From Anaerolineaceae bacterium (GTDB lineage Bacteria > Chloroflexota > Anaerolineae > Anaerolineales > Anaerolineaceae): a stretch of DNA of 55,323 nt. Positions 2,227 through 9,708 of the stretch are shown one piece after another (position 1 is the first letter of the stretch; every line of letters starts with the position of its first letter). The translations under genes were made by a program, and so were the position numbers. The notes under the pieces were generated by a model. The model saw only the letters and a program-made list of their open reading frames with translations. It was not told where the DNA came from and did not search any database. Location of the stretch: positions 1 to 55,323 of the forward strand of contig WOYY01000082.1 of NCBI GenBank assembly GCA_011620555.1. The letters run 5' to 3'.

Positions 2227-3039
2227 TTAATCGGCGTTCCGCCTGCGTTTGAGCGTATCCGCAATCAGGACGAGCAGGACCGAAAACGCCCCCAGGACGA
2301 TGGCCGCGACATAGGCGTCGGTGTGCTGGCGTTCGTCCAGAGATCGGAAGATGTAAAGGGTCGCGGTTTCCGTGCGGCCCTGCACGCCGCCGCCAATCAC
2401 CAGCACGGCGCCGAATTCACCCAGCGCCCGAGCAAAGGTGAGCGTCATGCCATAGATCAGGGCGGTCTTGAGTTGAGGGAAGATCACCTGCCAAAAGATC
2501 CGCCAGCGGGAAGCCCCCAGCGTCTCGGCGGCTTTTTCCTGAGAGAGATCCAGCCGGGCGATGACGGGCGCCATCTCCCGGACCATGAAGGGCAGGCTGA
2601 CGAAGAGGGTGGCCAGAAACATGCCCGGCACAGCGAAGGCCACCTGGAGCTTGAGCGATTCCAGCAGGGGGCCAAGGAAGCCGTTGCGCCCAAAGAGCAG
2701 GAGCAGCATATAGCCCACCACCACCGGAGAGAGGGCGAAGGGGATATCCAGCAGGCCGTTCAGCAGCGCTTTACCAAAGAAGGATTGGCGGGTGAGCACC
2801 CAGGCGGTCAAGGTGCCAAAGATGGCCTGAATCGCCACAACCGCGACCGCGATCCGGACGGACAGCCAGAGCGCCTGAATGAAGGGCTTGGCTGTGAGGC
2901 TTTGCCCTGCTTCCCGCAGCCCGTTCTGGAAGGCTCCCTGGACCAGGGCGGTGAGCGGGGCCACGATCAGGAAGACCACATAGGCCACGACAAGCGCCAG
3001 CAGCAGCCAGCCGCCCCAGCCCCGGATATTAGTTTTCAT
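2227..3039 (-). CDS. cysW: Sulfate-type ABC transporter permease CysW
   Basis: Integral membrane permease of the sulfate/molybdate ABC importer family (270 aa, the usual length), forming a heterodimer with the CysT product in the cytoplasmic membrane. About six hydrophobic segments are visible, and the cytoplasmic EAA loop that docks to the ATPase is clear (EKAAETLGASRW followed by FPQL, then ARALGEFGAV, a CysW/CysT hallmark). The start overlaps the cysT end by 11 nt, so the two are translationally coupled as the last genes of the cysA-sbp-cysT-cysW operon. Family assignment is firm. The true substrate (sulfate, thiosulfate or another oxyanion) cannot be read from the permease. Confidence 0.92.
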   Translation of the reverse strand: MKTNIRGWGGWLLLALVVAYVVFLIVAPLTALVQGAFQNGLREAGQSLTAKPFIQALWLSVRIAVAVVAIQAIFGTLTAWVLTRQSFFGKALLNGLLDIPFALSPVVVGYMLLLLFGRNGFLGPLLESLKLQVAFAVPGMFLATLFVSLPFMVREMAPVIARLDLSQEKAAETLGASRWRIFWQVIFPQLKTALIYGMTLTFARALGEFGAVLVIGGGVQGRTETATLYIFRSLDERQHTDAYVAAIVLGAFSVLLVLIADTLKRRRNAD

Positions 3040-3871
3040 AGCGGCTCTCCCAGGATTTCTGGACCCGGTTGGCGGTCAGGAGGATCAGGGTCGCCACGGC
3101 GATCAACAGCAAGGATATGGCGCTGGCCCCCAGGCGGTTCTCCGACTCCACCGCGCCCAGGACATAGACCGCGGCCGTCTGGGTTTTCAGGGGGATATTC
3201 CCGGCCACAATCACCACCGCCCCGAATTCGCCGATCGCCCGGGAGAAGCTGAGCAGCGAACCGCTCACCAGGGGCGGGAGCAGGTTTGGCAGTACCACCG
3301 TCCTGAAGGTATACCAGGGTTTGGCGCCCAGCGTTGCGGCCGCTTTTTCCTGCGCCAGGTCCAGGTTCATCAGCACGGGCTGGATCGTGCGGACCACAAA
3401 GGGGAATGAGATGAAGAGCAGGGCGATCACGATCCCTGGCGGGGCAAAGATGACCTGGAACCCCAGTTCGTTGGCCAGAAAATTCCCCAGGACGCCCTGC
3501 GGGCCGTAGAGCATGACCAACATTACGCCGGTCACCAGCGTGGGGATAGACAGGGGCAGGTCAATGATGGCGTTGAGCACCCGCTTGCCGGGAAATTCAT
3601 AGCGGACCAGCACGTAGGCGGTTGCCAGGCCCATCACAGCGTTGATCAGGGTCATCAGGGCCGCGGTCCAGAGCGTCAGCGAAATGGCATGGCGGGCGAT
3701 CGGCAGGGTGATCTGATGGACCAGTTCCCCAATGCCTTCCCGAAATCCGTCCTGCAGGATCACAAGCAGCGGGACCAGGATCATCAGCCCGATATAGAGC
3801 AGAACGGGGACGCGCAAGGCCCATATTGAAAGTCCGGATTTCCGTTCTCCCTGAAACAACGTCAGATCCAT
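3029..3871 (-). CDS. cysT: Sulfate-type ABC transporter permease CysT (CysU)
   Basis: Partner permease of CysW (280 aa). It shows about six membrane segments and the EAA-loop motif (EKAAATLGAKPW, then FSRAIGEFGAV). Its ATG overlaps the stop of the binding-protein gene by one base (TAATG), and its end overlaps cysW by 11 nt, indicating one polycistronic message. CysT and CysW normally form the translocation channel energised by a CysA dimer. Placement between binding protein and CysW matches many sulfate operons. No sulfate-assimilation enzyme genes are nearby. Confidence 0.92.
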   Translation of the reverse strand: MDLTLFQGERKSGLSIWALRVPVLLYIGLMILVPLLVILQDGFREGIGELVHQITLPIARHAISLTLWTAALMTLINAVMGLATAYVLVRYEFPGKRVLNAIIDLPLSIPTLVTGVMLVMLYGPQGVLGNFLANELGFQVIFAPPGIVIALLFISFPFVVRTIQPVLMNLDLAQEKAAATLGAKPWYTFRTVVLPNLLPPLVSGSLLSFSRAIGEFGAVVIVAGNIPLKTQTAAVYVLGAVESENRLGASAISLLLIAVATLILLTANRVQKSWESRYEN

Positions 3872-4917
3872 TAACGCGCGTCCCCTTGAGCCAATGCAAT
3901 GGCCTGGTTGTAGATCCCATCTTCGCCGAAGATGTCCTGCATGATGACTTCCCAGCCGCCAAAGTAGTCAATGGTGAAGAGGTCCTCCACAGGCGGGTAA
4001 TCCTCCTCAAACTGGCCAGCCACATCCAGGTTGACAACCCTCAGGCCGTGCTCTGCAAAGACAGCCTGGGCTTCCGGCGTATAGAGGAAATTGACAAAAG
4101 CCTCCGCCACTTCGCGGGTGCCGTGTTTATCCACGGACGCATCCACCACAGCAACCGGGTTCTGGATCAGGATGGTCGAGGTGGGGATCACACGTTCGTA
4201 GGTTTGGCCCGTTTGCCGCCCAACCAGAATCTCGTTTTCATAGGTGATCGCCAGATCGCCAATCCCCATCTCGAAGTTGAGGATGCTGTCCCGGGCGCCC
4301 TTGTCCATCACGCTGACGTTTTGGAGCACCTGGGTGAGGAACTCGAAGGCCGCAGCGGGGTCGTCGACGGGAACGCCAGCCACGCCGCCGCGCAGCGCTG
4401 CCCCATAGAGGGCGAGGATATTCCACATCGCCCCGCCGCTGGTGTTCGGGTTGGGGGTCAGGATCTCCAGATCGGGCTGGGTCAGGTCTGCCCAGTCGCT
4501 GATCCCAAGGGGATTTCCTTCGCGGACGGCGAAGGAAACGACCGAGCTGGTGACGATCCCCTGGTAGTCGTTGGCTTTCCAGTCATGGGTGATCAGCCCG
4601 GCCTCCTGGATCCGGTTGATATCCGCTTCCAAAGAGAGGGCGACCACATCGGCCTCGAACCCTTCGACCACCGCCCGGGATTGAGCGCCTGAGCCGAGAT
4701 AGGACTCTTCAAACGTCACCGTCTGGCCCGTTTCAGCCAGCCAATAGTCCTGGAAGAGGGCGATAATCTCTCCATAGGCCTCCCGCGGGGTGGTGTAGGC
4801 GCCCAGGATCAGGTTGACCTGGTCTGCTGCCGGTTCCGATGGGGCGGCTGCACAGGCGCCGAGGGTGAGAGCCAGACTTGCCAGAAGTGTGACGAGCAAG
4901 GTTTTAGTTTTCATCAT
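3871..4917 (-). CDS. sbp: Sulfate-type substrate-binding lipoprotein
   Basis: Extracytoplasmic solute-binding protein of the sulfate/thiosulfate family (348 aa). A lipoprotein signal ends in LTLGAC with lipidated Cys22. Family signatures are visible: a variant of the SYDPTRE motif (AYTTPREAYGE), PNPNTSGGAMWN, which normally contributes to oxyanion binding, and GDLAITYENE near the middle. The ATG at 4917 overlaps the ATPase stop (ATGA). AGGAGA lies 2 nt before this ATG and 5 nt before a second ATG (4914), so the second Met may be the real start. Sulfate is the default substrate. Because the operon seems to sit behind Pho-like boxes, another tetrahedral oxyanion is possible (inference). Confidence 0.9.
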   Translation of the reverse strand: MMKTKTLLVTLLASLALTLGACAAAPSEPAADQVNLILGAYTTPREAYGEIIALFQDYWLAETGQTVTFEESYLGSGAQSRAVVEGFEADVVALSLEADINRIQEAGLITHDWKANDYQGIVTSSVVSFAVREGNPLGISDWADLTQPDLEILTPNPNTSGGAMWNILALYGAALRGGVAGVPVDDPAAAFEFLTQVLQNVSVMDKGARDSILNFEMGIGDLAITYENEILVGRQTGQTYERVIPTSTILIQNPVAVVDASVDKHGTREVAEAFVNFLYTPEAQAVFAEHGLRVVNLDVAGQFEEDYPPVEDLFTIDYFGGWEVIMQDIFGEDGIYNQAIALAQGDAR

Positions 4918-6827
4918 ATTCTCCTAAAGGAATCCTGCAGACGCTGCAATTGATGCGAGCGGACGATCAGGAATGAACAATTCTCAACGCTGGTGAGGGT
5001 GGTTTTGATCACGCCTTCCAGTTCAAAATGGCCGGAACGGTCAGGCAGGGGCGCGCCCAGGACCACGAGGTCGTATTCCTGAGATTTCATTTCCGCCTGG
5101 ATGGACTCCAGGACCTCACCTTGCCGGATTCGGAGGTCCGCTTGGACCCCGAAACGGGCGAGGCTCTTTTGCCCATCTTTCAGGAAACGCTCCACCCGGA
5201 TCATTTCAAAGTCGTTGGCTTCGGCATCAGGCAGCACGGTCAGCAGGGTGGCCGTGGCGCCGAAATGCCGCAGGAAGCGGCCGCTGAAGATGACGTTGTC
5301 CTTCCCAGGCTCGCCGCTGGCCAACAGGATCAATGCTTTGCGCAACTGGGCGGTGGGTTTGGTCGCCAGGTAGAGGTGCTGCTCACCGGTTTGCAGCAGC
5401 TGTTCAGGCTGGTCCAGACCGGCGGTCGGCCGCCAGCCGAGGATGGCCAGATCAAAGGGGTGTTCTTCAACGAGTTTGGTGACGGCTTTCTTAAAGGGCG
5501 GCGGGGCTGATTCGGTGTTCAACGCGGCCATCCCGCTGCCGACGTCCTTGCGGGCATCCAGAAGGTGGCTCTCGATTTTGGCCTGGTCTGGGCCGATGCC
5601 CAGGATCGTGACCTGGGCGTGCGCCATCCGTGCCAGATAACCGCCCTGGATGAGCGCGGACTGACTGCGCAGGCTGCCATCGGTCAGGATCAGGAAGTTT
5701 AGCCCGGGGTGCGAGAGCACGTGCAGCCGGCGGATCCCGACCCAGACTGGCTGGTTCAAGGCGATGGGCAGGCTCGTGCTCTGCTCCGGCGAGCGGTTGA
5801 CATCCATCACGAAGCCCGGAATGCCATAGGGCGCGACCGGCGAGATCGCCCGGACGCCATCGATGGGCGGCAGTTCCACCCGCAGGTGTTGATTGGGGCC
5901 GTTGAACCCGATTTCAATCACCTTGCCCTTGCCGAGGGGCAGCCCGCTCAGGTCAGCTTCGGAAGCTGCCAGGTCAATATCTTCAGGGCGGGAAAGGATC
6001 TGCGCCCGGCTGCCGGCGTGCAGGTCGTAGGCCTCCGCGGGCAGGGGGAAACCATGCGTCCCAAGGAAAACTTCATGGCCATTGACCTGGCCCAGCAGCA
6101 GGTTGGCTGATCCGAGGAAGGAAGCCACATATTCTGTTTTGGGGAATTGGTATAGCTCATTCGGCGTTCCGACCTCGATTAGCCTCCCGTAGTTCATCAC
6201 GCCGATCCGGTCCCCCAGGTCAAAGGCCTCGTCCTGATCGTGTGTCACTAATATCGCGGCAACCCCTAGTTGTCGTTGGATTTTTTTTAGACTGCGCCGC
6301 AATTCCACCCTGATCTTGGCATCCAGGGCGCCCAAAGGCTCATCCAGGAGCAGGACATCCGGCTCGATCGCCAAGGCCCGGGCCAGGGCGACGCGTTGCT
6401 GCTGCCCGCCGGAAAGCTGGGCCGACATTCGGTTGCCCATCCCGACCAGGCCCACCAATTCCAAAAGCTCATCCCGCCGCCTTTGGCGCTGATCTTTGGG
6501 CATTTTGCGCACTTTCAGGCCAAATTCGATGTTTTCGGCCACGGTCATGGATTGGAACAGCGCATAGTTTTGGAAGACGAAACCAATATTGCGTTTCTGA
6601 GGCGTTTCCTGGGTCACGTCGCGGTCATGCAGCCAGATACGGCCCTGATCGGGCGCGATCAGACCGGCGATCATGTTCAGGACGGTTGTCTTTCCGCTGC
6701 CGCTGGCGCCCAGGAGGACGAAAAACTCCCCATTGTCGATTTCCAGGTTAACGTTGTTGACCACCACCTGGCGGCCGTAATATTTGCTGATGTTTTCCAA
6801 GCGGATCGACAACAAACCCTCCGACAC
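4914..6827 (-). CDS. cysA: CysA-type ABC ATPase fused to universal-stress-protein-like domains
   Basis: ATPase of the sulfate-type importer, but 637 aa long where CysA proteins are usually about 350. Residues 8-240 are a canonical ABC domain: Walker A GASGSGKTT (40-48), Q-loop Gln86, signature LSGGQQQRV (138-146), Walker B LLLDEP (159-164), H-loop His196. Residues about 245-370 match the CysA/MalK regulatory OB/TOBE region. The remainder (375-637) looks like two tandem universal-stress-protein folds: about 377-490 and 495-625, the latter with LVVLGAPLPDRSGH and FLIVRS resembling the UspA nucleotide-binding signature. The longest frame starts at GTG 6827 without a good ribosome site; TTG codons at 6815 and 6812 follow GGAGGG closely, so the start is uncertain. 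It is the first gene of the operon and overlaps sbp by 4 nt. The tail may gate transport by nucleotide or stress status (inference). Confidence 0.9.
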   Translation of the reverse strand: MSEGLLSIRLENISKYYGRQVVVNNVNLEIDNGEFFVLLGASGSGKTTVLNMIAGLIAPDQGRIWLHDRDVTQETPQKRNIGFVFQNYALFQSMTVAENIEFGLKVRKMPKDQRQRRRDELLELVGLVGMGNRMSAQLSGGQQQRVALARALAIEPDVLLLDEPLGALDAKIRVELRRSLKKIQRQLGVAAILVTHDQDEAFDLGDRIGVMNYGRLIEVGTPNELYQFPKTEYVASFLGSANLLLGQVNGHEVFLGTHGFPLPAEAYDLHAGSRAQILSRPEDIDLAASEADLSGLPLGKGKVIEIGFNGPNQHLRVELPPIDGVRAISPVAPYGIPGFVMDVNRSPEQSTSLPIALNQPVWVGIRRLHVLSHPGLNFLILTDGSLRSQSALIQGGYLARMAHAQVTILGIGPDQAKIESHLLDARKDVGSGMAALNTESAPPPFKKAVTKLVEEHPFDLAILGWRPTAGLDQPEQLLQTGEQHLYLATKPTAQLRKALILLASGEPGKDNVIFSGRFLRHFGATATLLTVLPDAEANDFEMIRVERFLKDGQKSLARFGVQADLRIRQGEVLESIQAEMKSQEYDLVVLGAPLPDRSGHFELEGVIKTTLTSVENCSFLIVRSHQLQRLQDSFRRI

Positions 6828-6832
6828 ACAAT

Positions 6833-6855
6833 AACCCAGGGGTTTCGCCTGGGTT
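6833..6855 (-). promoter_or_regulatory. Hairpin in the 5' leader of the cysA operon
   Basis: AACCCAGG (6833-6840) and CCTGGGTT (6848-6855) form a perfect 8-bp stem with a 7-nt loop, between the predicted transcription start (about 6863) and the GTG start. No T-run follows on the minus strand, so it is more likely a leader structure than a terminator. Confidence 0.4.
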
Positions 6856-6869
6856 TGATTTCAGGTTAA

Positions 6870-6875
6870 ATTGTA
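6870..6875 (-). promoter_or_regulatory. cysA: -10 box of the cysA operon promoter
   Basis: TACAAT on the minus strand, one base from consensus, about 43 nt upstream of the GTG start. No TTGACA-like -35 is present at the right distance; the place is occupied by the TCACA repeat array, as expected for an activator-dependent promoter. Confidence 0.55.
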
Positions 6876-6884
6876 GTCAGGGGA

Positions 6885-6924
6885 TGTGACCGGGGCTGTG
6901 ACGGCCTTGTGATAAAGCTGTGAT
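6885..6924 (-). promoter_or_regulatory. Four Pho-box-like direct repeats upstream of the cysA operon
   Basis: Read on the minus strand, hexamers ATCACA (6924-6919), ATCACA (6913-6908), GTCACA (6902-6897) and GTCACA (6890-6885) are separated by 5, 5 and 6 bp, giving 11-12 bp steps, one helical turn. The last repeat ends exactly 9 bp before the TACAAT -10. OmpR/PhoB-type winged-helix regulators bind such repeats in place of a -35. The regulator encoded at 6938-7627 is the obvious candidate. The same spacing recurs upstream of pstS (54947-54996). Confidence 0.6.
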
Positions 6925-6937
6925 ATTTTTGTCAGGA

Positions 6938-7627
6938 TCAGGGAATGAACCGATAGCCGATCCCGGGATGGTTTTGGATCATCTGGGGGTTGCCGGGGTC
7001 GCTTTCCACCTTTTGCCGCAGGCGGCGGATCAACTGTCTGAGCATATCCGGGGTGGCGCCGCCCGGCCCCCAGACGTGGTCAATGAGGGTGGCGGTGGGG
7101 AGCACCTGGTTGGCGTTGAGGAACAGGATTTCCATCAGGCGGCTTTCGAGCCGGGTCAGAAGGACCGGCTCAGCGCCGCCTCGGGTGAATTCGTGACGAT
7201 TGGGGTCGAAGTGGATATCTCTGGCGCTGAAAGCGGCGGGCATGAGGGCCTGGCCTTCCTTTGCCCTGCGCAGCACGGTTTGGACCCGGGCCACCAGCTG
7301 GCGGGGGCTGAAGGGTTTGAGGATATAATCATCCGCGCCCAGGTTCAGGCCCTTGATGATATCCTCTTCGTCATCGCGGACGGTCAGCAGGATGATCGGC
7401 ACATTGGAGGTTTCCCGGATCCTGCGGCAGACGTCAAAGCCATTTTGCAGCTGGTTCCCACCAGGCAAATTGACATCGAGCAGGATGATATCATACGAGT
7501 CCTGCTGGAAGGTGCTGACGGCGCCGGGGGCATCAAAAGCCTGGACGGTTTCAAAGCCGGCCCGCCGCAGCGTGAAAGAAAGCAGATCTGCCAGGGTGCG
7601 GTCGTCGTCCACGATCAGGGCTTTCAT
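6938..7627 (-). CDS. OmpR/PhoB-family response regulator
   Basis: DNA-binding response regulator of 229 aa. The receiver domain (1-120) has the acidic pocket Asp7/Asp8/Asp9, phospho-acceptor Asp51 (LLDVNLP), Thr82 and Lys104 (LKPF). The C-terminal winged-helix effector (about 130-229) has the family's recognition-helix region (TPDMLRQLIRRLRQKV) and GIGYRF end. I chose ATG 7627 because it overlaps the kinase stop (ATGA) and begins right at the receiver (MKALIVDDD); a longer reading to 7663 adds residues that do not fit the fold. The loop after Asp51 (GGNQLQNGFDV) is about four residues longer than usual. It is co-transcribed behind the histidine kinase and lies next to the TCACA repeats it may bind. 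Likely PhoB/PhoP-like, though the signal is unproven. Confidence 0.93.
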   Translation of the reverse strand: MKALIVDDDRTLADLLSFTLRRAGFETVQAFDAPGAVSTFQQDSYDIILLDVNLPGGNQLQNGFDVCRRIRETSNVPIILLTVRDDEEDIIKGLNLGADDYILKPFSPRQLVARVQTVLRRAKEGQALMPAAFSARDIHFDPNRHEFTRGGAEPVLLTRLESRLMEILFLNANQVLPTATLIDHVWGPGGATPDMLRQLIRRLRQKVESDPGNPQMIQNHPGIGYRFIP

Positions 7628-9708
7628 TGGCCATCTCCCGGAGCGGTGGGCAAGGTGAACCAAAAGAGGGCGCCGCCGACTTCGGCGTTCCGATAGCCGA
7701 CCTGGCCGGATTGGGCTTCAATGACCGCCTTGACCACCGAAAGCCCCAGCCCCAGCCCTAGTTGGGGGGCGTCCGAAGCGGATTTTGGGGTCATGAAACG
7801 GTTGAAGATCTGAGATTGCAGGTTTTCGGGGATTCCGGTGCCCTCATCCTGAACTTCCACCAGGACGGCTTTTTCCACCAGGAGGGTCCGGATGGTGATC
7901 CGGCTGCCTTCGGGGCTATGCTTGATGGCATTGGAGAGCAGGTTGATCAGGACCTGAACGGTCCGGCGGCGGTCTGCCCTGACGATGACATCCTTTTTTG
8001 GCTCCGGCCGGAGGATGGAAACCTGGTGCTGCTGTGCGATGGGTTCCATGGTGAGGATGGCGTCATTCACGATCTGGCGGAAGGGGACTGGTTGCGAGTT
8101 GACCTTGAAACGGCCGCCTTCGATGCTGGCCGCTTCGATCAGGTTGTCGATCAGGGATTGCAGGTTGACAATGCCGATGTTGATCGTGTGCAGCAGGCTT
8201 TCAATCTCCGGCAGGGAGAGGTCCGGCAGCTGGTCCATCAGGAGTTCAACGGAAGCGGAAAGGGCCGCCAGTGGGGTGCGGAATTCGTGGGTGATGTTGG
8301 CCATGAATTCGCCGATCAGATGGTGGATGCGCTCCTCATTCGAGACATCCCGGATCACCAAAGCGGTCGTGGCATTGCCGGCATCCGGGGGAATGAACTC
8401 GGAGCGGGAAACCGCCAGCAGCATCTTGGTACCGTTGATGATGACTGGAATTCGCCGGACCTGTTCAATTTGCGGGATCTGCTGGCTGAAGGGATCTTCG
8501 CCGGGCGGGGTGGTGATGATCTCGTCAATGGGGAGGCCGATCATTTCCGCGGAGGTTTTGCCGGTCAGCCGGGAGCTTGAACTGCTGGCGAAGGTCACAC
8601 AATGCCGATTATCGAGCGTAAGCAGACCTTCAACAATTGAATTTAACAGGCCTTCGATCCAGATTTTCTCTTTTTGAAGCCGGTCCAGGGAATGCTTGAG
8701 GCTGACCCTGGCGTCTTCCAGGGCGTTGGCTAGCTGGTCAATTTCCCATAAGCTGGAGACGGTGTTCAGTTGAGAGGTCAAATCGCCTTCCCTCAAGCGA
8801 GCGGCTGACTGGGCCAGCTGGTTTAGTGGCCTGCTGAACCGCCGGGAGATCAGGACCGACAGCCCCGCGGCCAGGAGGCCGATGAACAGGAGGGCGATCA
8901 GGATGATCCTGCGCAATTGGCGGTTAGCCTGGAGAAAGGGGGATAGCCAGAGGAATTCCAGCCATTCGATTCGGGGATTTTCCAACCCGGACAGGGGTCT
9001 GACCATGACTGTTTGAGGCTCTGAGCTTTCAGAGGCGAAGGTCAGGATGTCATAGGCGGAAATCGCTTCTGGGTGGAGGGCGCAGAGGTCCGCTGTTTGG
9101 GCGTTGAGATTGCTGACAATGAGGTCTTCATCCCAAAACAGGGTGTATTTCAACCCGCTTTGGACGGTGAATTCATCCAGAATAGTGCTCAGCCGTTGCC
9201 CAACGACGACCTCGCCGCCACTGGTCAGCGCTTCTCTGGTGATGAGCCAGGCCGTATCATCCCTGACGAAGATTTTTTCGCCAGCCGGGCCTTCGCATAG
9301 CCCTTCGAGCGTCTCGCCTTCTGTGGAGGCGATCTGGGAGCCGCCCTCGCAGATCACGATCACGTCAAAACCGGAAGGTGACTGGATCCCTTCGAGATAG
9401 GTTCGGAGGGCGTCCGAATCCGCATCCGTTTCGAGCAGGGCATTCAGGGTGGGATGCTGGACGAGGAGAGCCGCCAGGTTCTGCAGTTGATTGATTTTGC
9501 TGTCGTAAAGGGCCTGCGTGGTCTGGTCCGCCTGGTCCAAAAGGGCGCGGAGTTGGCGATTTGTTTGGTGATCCAGGACGAGGGTTGCAGGAATGCCCAG
9601 CGTCAGGATCGCTCCCAGGGTGAAGGCCAGGAAGATGACCAAAAGCTGCACCGTAAATCGCTTGGGCGACAGTTGCTGGCGAAGTTTACGGAAATTCATG
9701 TTTGTCAA
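7624..9708 (-). CDS. Membrane sensor histidine kinase (HAMP-PAS-HisKA-HATPase)
   Basis: Sensor kinase of 694 aa paired with the downstream regulator. Transmembrane segments lie at about 20-46 and 266-287 and flank an extracytoplasmic sensor domain of some 220 residues. A HAMP linker (about 288-340), a PAS domain (about 350-455) and the kinase core follow: H-box NITHEFRTPLAAL with phospho-acceptor His474, N-box Asn593, G1 DEGTGIP (621-627) and G2 GLGLGLSVVK. The order is that of PhoR/ResE/WalK-type kinases. Its end overlaps the regulator start by 4 nt. A good promoter (TTGTCA-17-TATAGT, 9753-9781) precedes it. The sensor domain is not one I recognise, so the stimulus is unknown; phosphate limitation is inferred only from the pstS-like boxes. 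Confidence 0.93.
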   Translation of the reverse strand: MTNMNFRKLRQQLSPKRFTVQLLVIFLAFTLGAILTLGIPATLVLDHQTNRQLRALLDQADQTTQALYDSKINQLQNLAALLVQHPTLNALLETDADSDALRTYLEGIQSPSGFDVIVICEGGSQIASTEGETLEGLCEGPAGEKIFVRDDTAWLITREALTSGGEVVVGQRLSTILDEFTVQSGLKYTLFWDEDLIVSNLNAQTADLCALHPEAISAYDILTFASESSEPQTVMVRPLSGLENPRIEWLEFLWLSPFLQANRQLRRIILIALLFIGLLAAGLSVLISRRFSRPLNQLAQSAARLREGDLTSQLNTVSSLWEIDQLANALEDARVSLKHSLDRLQKEKIWIEGLLNSIVEGLLTLDNRHCVTFASSSSSRLTGKTSAEMIGLPIDEIITTPPGEDPFSQQIPQIEQVRRIPVIINGTKMLLAVSRSEFIPPDAGNATTALVIRDVSNEERIHHLIGEFMANITHEFRTPLAALSASVELLMDQLPDLSLPEIESLLHTINIGIVNLQSLIDNLIEAASIEGGRFKVNSQPVPFRQIVNDAILTMEPIAQQHQVSILRPEPKKDVIVRADRRRTVQVLINLLSNAIKHSPEGSRITIRTLLVEKAVLVEVQDEGTGIPENLQSQIFNRFMTPKSASDAPQLGLGLGLSVVKAVIEAQSGQVGYRNAEVGGALFWFTLPTAPGDGQ

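Follow-up and report, generated by a model that had tools for sequence, protein, structure and literature searches.

Which protein reads the four phased TCACA repeats that stand in place of a -35 element before a sulfate-type transporter operon of an Anaerolineaceae bacterium, and which nutrient does it serve? The repeats lie in the window, the whole 55,323-nucleotide stretch of contig WOYY01000082.1 that was analysed. All genes of the locus are on the minus strand, in the order sensor kinase (9708-7624), response regulator (7627-6938), array, CysA.USP, substrate-binding protein (SBP), CysT, and CysW. Judged from sequence, the repeats are likely a PhoB-style activator operator of the adjacent regulator, driving an oxyanion importer.

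Repeat array and promoter

The array, on the minus strand, is made of four (A/G)TCACA units spaced by steps of 11, 11, and 12 bp, and TACAAT follows it; that strand reads here ...TATCACAGCTTTATCACAAGGCCGTCACAGCCCCGGTCACATCCCCTGACTACAATTT... Repeats 1 and 2 are ATCACA (6919-6924 and, after an 11-bp step, 6908-6913), and repeats 3 and 4 are GTCACA (6897-6902 after a further 11-bp step, 6885-6890 after a 12-bp step), a geometry common to 45 of 60 loci. The -10 box TACAAT (6870-6875) starts 14 bp past the first base of the fourth TCAC, with nine bases between repeat 4, which ends at 6885, and TACAAT at 6875-6870. This is the arrangement that the first-pass annotation had described, recovered at the same coordinates and far beyond chance. 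A three-unit search allowing up to three mismatches is expected to give 0.11 matches per window and gave two, both inside the array. A four-unit array with gaps of 6-8 has one occurrence in the window; 300 dinucleotide-shuffled versions of the window gave none, nor did 20,000 shuffled versions of the 110-bp intergenic region. It is the sole array found in the window, and it was found at one place in the genome.

The fourth unit stands at one fixed distance from the -10 box, because TA is found at +14 from it in 25/25 compared loci, seven of them found by pattern and 18 by regulator; TAnnnT is present in 23/25. Scanned for promoters, the minus strand between 6000 and 8000 yielded no sigma-70 pair, and the -35 position with a 17-bp spacer reads CAGCCC (6898-6893), in agreement with the earlier proposal that the repeats replace the -35. 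The fourth unit adjoins the place where sigma region 4 would need that element.

Several further candidates in this region were dropped. A half-match to a fifth repeat, CTGACA at 6935-6930, is not kept in relatives. Autoregulation of the kinase gene through the array was discarded as well; the window has one array. Between 6500 and 10000, the sole match to a known RNA is a sub-threshold miRNA. The leader of the importer operon contains a strong hairpin (6833-6855, minus strand), and the leader of the nearest relative, L056, has a hairpin resembling it that is followed by a T run, terminator-like, between promoter and gene. Attenuation by the hairpin at 6855-6833 was rejected: the similar fold is found in L056, L058 has another one near the start of its leader, and folds in the remaining genus leaders are weaker or different.

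Regulator and sensor kinase

The presumed array binder (6938-7627, minus strand) is an OmpR/PhoB-family response regulator, as first proposed, with a receiver domain and a winged-helix DNA-binding domain (Pfam Response_reg and Trans_reg_C; structure model) and a recognition helix at residues 193-206. It scores 159.1 bits against the PhoB model TIGR02154, below the cut-off of 296.2. Among curated models MtrA scores highest (189.8 bits, cut-off 300), and the solved chains nearest to it by sequence are RegX3 and MtrA.

The sensor histidine kinase (7624-9708, minus strand) contains a dCache-like extracellular domain followed by HAMP, PAS, HisKA, and HATPase domains, assigned from Pfam, a model of the sensor part, and fold matches. 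Its score against the PhoR model TIGR02966 is 148.3 bits, below the cut-off of 334.2. The sensor model (pLDDT 88.5) shows a long helix followed by a stack of two Cache/PAS-like subdomains and matches LuxQ (Z 14.5, rmsd 3.7, 189 aligned) and DctB (Z 13.8, rmsd 3.6, 195 aligned), so that the sensor is confidently modelled as a dCache domain. The known ligands of dCache domains are mostly organic, and nothing in this sensor points to phosphate or sulfate. Two of its cysteines (window 8809-9651, minus strand; fragment residues 101 and 119) are invariant in 19/19 kinases; could they form a disulfide or redox switch?

Importer operon and its substrate

The first gene of the operon (4914-6812, minus strand) encodes a CysA-type ATPase fused to a USP-like C-terminus. 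Its start is probably TTG at 6812-6810, rather than GTG at 6827, because each of the nine other loci of the genus has an ATG aligned there and GGAGGG is found immediately upstream. The ATPase falls below the CysA models (NF008105, 304 bits, cut-off 502; TIGR00968, 310.9 bits, cut-off 342.75). The SBP (3871-4917) exceeds TIGR00971 with 245 bits (cut-off 155.5). The permeases are CysT (3029-3871; TIGR02139, 251 bits, cut-off 246.1) and a CysW-like protein (2227-3039; TIGR02140, 253.7 bits, below the cut-off of 329.1), all on the minus strand, and both permeases, with 283.9 (CysW-like) and 276.7 bits, lie above the TIGR00969 cut-off of 240. The operon is thus a sulfate-type importer, as its initial description had it.

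The SBP matches sulfate-binding protein 1sbp (5.7e-64), whose pocket donors are presumably S45, S130, G131, G132, A173, and W192. Five of these six checked donor positions (S45, S130, G131, G132, and A173) are kept in 13/13 genus SBPs; W192 is replaced by Tyr, and D11 by Thr, in all 13. Tyr192 also occurs in two of three homologues from other phyla (Paenibacillus and Pseudanabaena), with Trp in Rhizobium. The transported ion would be sulfate or a close oxyanion, and the earlier suggestion of a different oxyanion substrate is not favoured, given a sulfate-type SBP that retains five of the six donor positions checked.

Genes of sulfate metabolism were surveyed in the 16 genus genomes. ATP-sulfurylase is present in 10/12 importer genomes vs 1/4 others (p = 0.06), and in the genome of the window it is fused to APS kinase. 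The loci noted for the PUA-ATP sulfurylase-APS kinase fusion and its surroundings are L143:9659-11392 and L145:6130-7113, and a chromate-transporter-family gene is found near the own-genome sulfurylase (L143:14361-15512). No PAPS reductase (PF01507) was found in the own genome; partial matches occur in 4/16 genomes, two of them marginally above cut-off. APS reductase (PF12139) had no match in any genome or in any control, which makes this result uninformative. In genome G102, a sulfotransferase gene directly adjoins the sulfurylase gene. With a sulfotransferase beside the sulfurylase and PAPS reductase not found, the imported sulfate may be used for sulfation and not for making cysteine.

Conservation within the genus

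The regulator is present in 11/16 genus genomes, the SBP in 12/16, and the three-unit pattern in 10/16, each time at the regulator-CysA gap; the reversed-pattern control gave one match over all 16 genomes. In nine of the ten array-bearing genomes the pattern occurs solely at this gap, and G102 has two further places. One of its arrays has 11-11-11 steps (L071:3857-3893) and lies between an OsmC-like gene and DUF2089/MFS genes. The array stands between an OmpR-type regulator and CysA-SBP-CysT-CysW in all ten genus loci examined, and the complete order kinase-regulator-array-CysA.USP-SBP-CysT-CysW is kept in the nine other fetched loci (L056-L064). Loss of the repeats in relatives, named at the outset as an observation that would count against the proposal, is therefore not what the genus displays.

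The exceptions are few. In G082 the regulator and the SBP are on two different broken contigs, and in G122 the SBP is on one; the available DNA of these copies, which have no array, does not include the promoter. G110, G121, G072, and G123 showed no regulator, SBP, or array, and three of these four genomes are 66-79% complete. PstC is above its cut-off in 11/16 genus genomes; the genome of the window, which is 96% complete, has no PstC above the family cut-off. The four fetched genus Pst loci (G102, G090, G106, and G118) have no TCAC array and no neighbouring regulator when scanned with the TCAC pattern.

Distribution across the class

The cassette is a class-wide type that also precedes Pst operons. 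The 11-11-12 pattern was found in 14/396 class genomes, with no match for the reversed-pattern control. Four of the 14 belong to the genus of the window, and seven of the other ten have the pattern beside this two-component system and/or a USP-type gene; three do not. Three matches in the class, L163-L165, lack both a recognised regulator and TA at +14, and they were discounted as unrelated or due to chance. The arrays of L071-L077, from elsewhere in the family, have another geometry, with steps of 11-11-11, and were also put aside; the regulator type was not found beside them above 33% identity. In L072 and L073 (genus g17), longer TCAC arrays lie behind a different OmpR-family regulator (31-32% identity).

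A search with the regulator sequence gave 45 matches in 44/396 class genomes. The 60 regulator-selected loci are made up of 41 class matches from other genera, 10 loci of the genus itself, six of genus g8, and L004-L006. Excluded were G082 (contig end), L036 (a paralogue), L003 (contig shared with L061), and the weaker hits L007-L018. An array starts no more than about 690 bp after the regulator in 45/60 of these loci. These 45 score at least 29 and the other 15 at most -2.6, against a background 99th percentile of 6.9 (n = 1607 windows); the scoring matrix was learned iteratively from the same loci and favours them, so the argument is the gap between the groups. The five top background windows scored 34.3-44.1, and loci with a second array can supply such windows.

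Seven of the 15 remaining loci have an array elsewhere, in five cases upstream of an importer operon or of the USP gene that goes with it. The array is 3 kb off in L159 and about 0.7 kb off in L203, just past the scanned reach. In L211 and L212 it precedes an importer on the other strand, in L223 it also precedes an importer, and in L215 and L217 it has no recognised gene behind it. No array was found in the scanned DNA of L005 (with just 136 bp of downstream DNA), L199, L200, L218, L219, L224, L229, and L230 (8/60).

What stands behind the regulator varies. Downstream classes were assigned for 59 loci (L005 left out), 44 of which have at least 5 kb downstream, by counting hits on the regulator strand; the counts describe the neighbourhood of the regulator, whether or not an array adjoins it, and the divergent L211 and L212 are entered as none. 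Among these 44, the operon is sulfate-type in 15, Pst in five, Pst with a second Sbp-like SBP in four, Pst with CysA in one, and Pst with CysA and an Sbp-like protein in one; five have a multihaem cytochrome and 13 none of these. Operon type changes at least seven times on the regulator tree. Arrays precede pst in relatives such as L197, L198, L207, and L223. In L204, a USP-PstSCAB-SBP-CysT-CysA.USP run lies behind a single array; in L223, PstS and CysA.USP are each preceded by an array of their own, with a weaker third in front of a USP gene.

A USP-type match on the regulator strand accompanies 31/32 importer loci, long or short, with L226 as the exception. The USP-like domain is fused to the CysA ATPase in the window (4914-6812); in relatives it is a separate gene beside Pst or Sbp-like importers (L006:7131-8144 and L161:2148-2882), and stand-alone genes of this type often carry MshEN. 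In the g8 relatives (L065-L070), kinase, regulator, and array precede a multihaem cytochrome gene in 6/6, with no importer. These cytochrome loci also contain HmcB/HybA-like and NrfD-like genes and a second related regulator (five of six).

Recognition helix and repeat motif

The repeat motif and the recognition helix vary together. Loci with TCACA arrays have Arg or His at residue 201 in 33/33 cases and those with TTACC-like arrays have Tyr201 in 11/11, so motif class and residue agree in 44/44 clear cases. Residues 194 and 197 change along with the TTACC-like motif in 10/11. The intermediate L209 has Tyr201 with D194 and R197, and its first unit is TTACA, in which base 2 is changed and base 5 is not; its other units vary. 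L201 is mixed, stands outside the 44 clear cases, and was treated as TCAC for the tree.

A tree from which the helix columns were left out shows two changes of the motif and two of residue 201. They yield a single independent pair on supported branches; it agrees, and one pair gives no basis for a statistical test of the covariation. Many other columns also separate the two motif groups, because the groups largely coincide with clades. In the Mycobacterium tuberculosis PhoP-DNA structure (PMC4832192), Asn212 contacts base pairs 4-5 of TCACAGC and Glu215 those beyond. Residues 194 and 197 align with these base-contacting residues, and residue 201 with Ser219, a phosphate contact and not a base contact. 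The connection is accordingly suggestive at base 5; at base 2 it is looser. Together with co-presence, the covariation supports a tie between the repeats and the adjacent regulator.

Comparison with known systems

The Pho box consists of 7-bp direct repeats with 4-bp spacers, an 11-bp step, before the -10 (PMC4415409), and in the PhoB layout the regulator sites lie beside the -10 over the -35 region (PMC4415409 and PMC3348028). The window shares an OmpR/PhoB regulator and 11-bp direct repeats over the -35 region with PhoB promoters of Escherichia coli and Desulfovibrio vulgaris (DVU1083), which bears out the PhoB/PhoP-type geometry proposed at first sight. It differs in having four units, a 12-bp last step after two 11-bp steps, and a sulfate-type importer. 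GTCAC/GTTAC units agree with the D. vulgaris box (c/t)GT(n)AC; the first two units of the window are ATCAC instead. Unlike PhoB systems, the window has a regulator and a kinase under the family cut-offs, in a genome with no PstC over cut-off.

The M. tuberculosis PhoP operator TCACAGC-N4-TCACAGC has a nearly identical unit and the same 11-bp step, whereas the window has four units; at the helix contacts the window has D194, M195, R197, Q198, L199, and R202 against N212, V213, E215, S216, Y217, and Y220 of PhoP. Sbp/CysP-CysTWA sulfate importers, which are under CysB/Cbl control, share the SBP, CysT, and CysW types and five of the six pocket donor positions checked with the window; they differ from it in that its ATPase has a USP-like C-terminus and its control is two-component instead of CysB/Cbl. 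The PstSCAB operons behind the cassette in class relatives share kinase, regulator, array, and a USP-type gene; their importer is phosphate-type, and their USP domain is on a separate, often MshEN-bearing protein.

Proposed mechanism and alternatives

In the proposed mechanism, the neighbouring dCache kinase would phosphorylate the regulator, and the 11-11-12 array would be bound by two dimers of the regulator, arranged head to tail. Standing in for the absent -35, the dimers would keep sigma/RNA polymerase at the -10 box and so switch on the CysA.USP-SBP-CysT-CysW importer for sulfate or a close oxyanion. Activation rather than repression is suggested because the layout matches PhoB promoters. 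The signal is the part on which the remaining readings divide.

One reading, given somewhat less than an even chance, is that in this genus the system responds to scarce sulfate (or to a metabolite of it) and acts on this importer only, operon swapping having turned neighbouring cassettes to other ions. It agrees with the single array place per genome, beside the importer, in nine of ten genus genomes, with the co-presence or co-absence of regulator, array, and importer (broken contigs aside), with the ATP-sulfurylase distribution, and with the sulfate-type SBP. The sharing of the operator with Pst operons elsewhere and the mostly organic known ligands of dCache domains argue against it.

The first-pass annotation had raised Pho control of sulfate uptake. 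Such a system would be the functional PhoR/PhoB of the class, answering phosphate shortage and also driving sulfate import, for example where sulfolipids replace phospholipids, with the sulfate branch alone left here; this is plausible, though less likely than not. The idea gains indirect support because the cassette precedes PstSCAB, with array-bearing regulator orthologues there in several lineages, and because one relative, L223, has arrays before both PstS and CysA.USP; the joint run in L204 and the repeated changes of operon type point the same way. The D. vulgaris PhoB box (PMC3333781) and the reported rise of Microcystis sulfate-transporter transcripts under phosphate limitation (PMC4415409) are also in its favour. 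That the regulator is PhoB, or that phosphate is the signal, has found no support so far: regulator and kinase are far under the PhoB and PhoR models, a shared operator before pst within one genome was not found in the genome of the window (no PstC above cut-off; one array place), the four genus Pst loci examined lack a TCAC array and neighbouring regulator, and the sensor is a large dCache domain.

A broader model is offered tentatively, at below even confidence: one rigid four-site promoter (11-11-12, TA at +14) would serve phosphate- and sulfate-type importers and have been re-plugged in evolution, the genus would have rewired a Pho-type switch to sulfate alone, and residue 201 would set base 2 and residues 194 and 197 base 5.

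It is improbable that the array acts as a repressor site or is used by another protein. The sequence gives no direction of regulation, and TCAC arrays lie behind the different regulator of L072 and L073; the missing -35 and fixed -10 distance form an activator layout, however, and the helix varies with the motif of the adjacent array. Chance or composition is refuted because the array is conserved, and the shuffles, the three-unit expectation, the empty reversed-pattern control in 396 genomes, and the scores of 45/60 loci leave it next to no weight.

The preferred reading, an activator operator of the adjacent regulator, provides an operator, a regulator, and targets through which nutrient control in this class can be tested; the literature searched described no Pho or sulfate regulon of the class, and among the matches listed, no paper was found on a two-component sulfate regulator of this kind or on a Chloroflexota Pho regulon. 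It suggests how a single signalling cassette moves between uptake of phosphate and of sulfate. If sulfate uptake is indeed under a Pho-type switch, this would fit the phospholipid-to-sulfolipid replacement reported in cyanobacteria (PMC4415409). The TCACA, TTACA-like, and TTACC arrays and their regulators form a natural series for the recognition code of the OmpR family.
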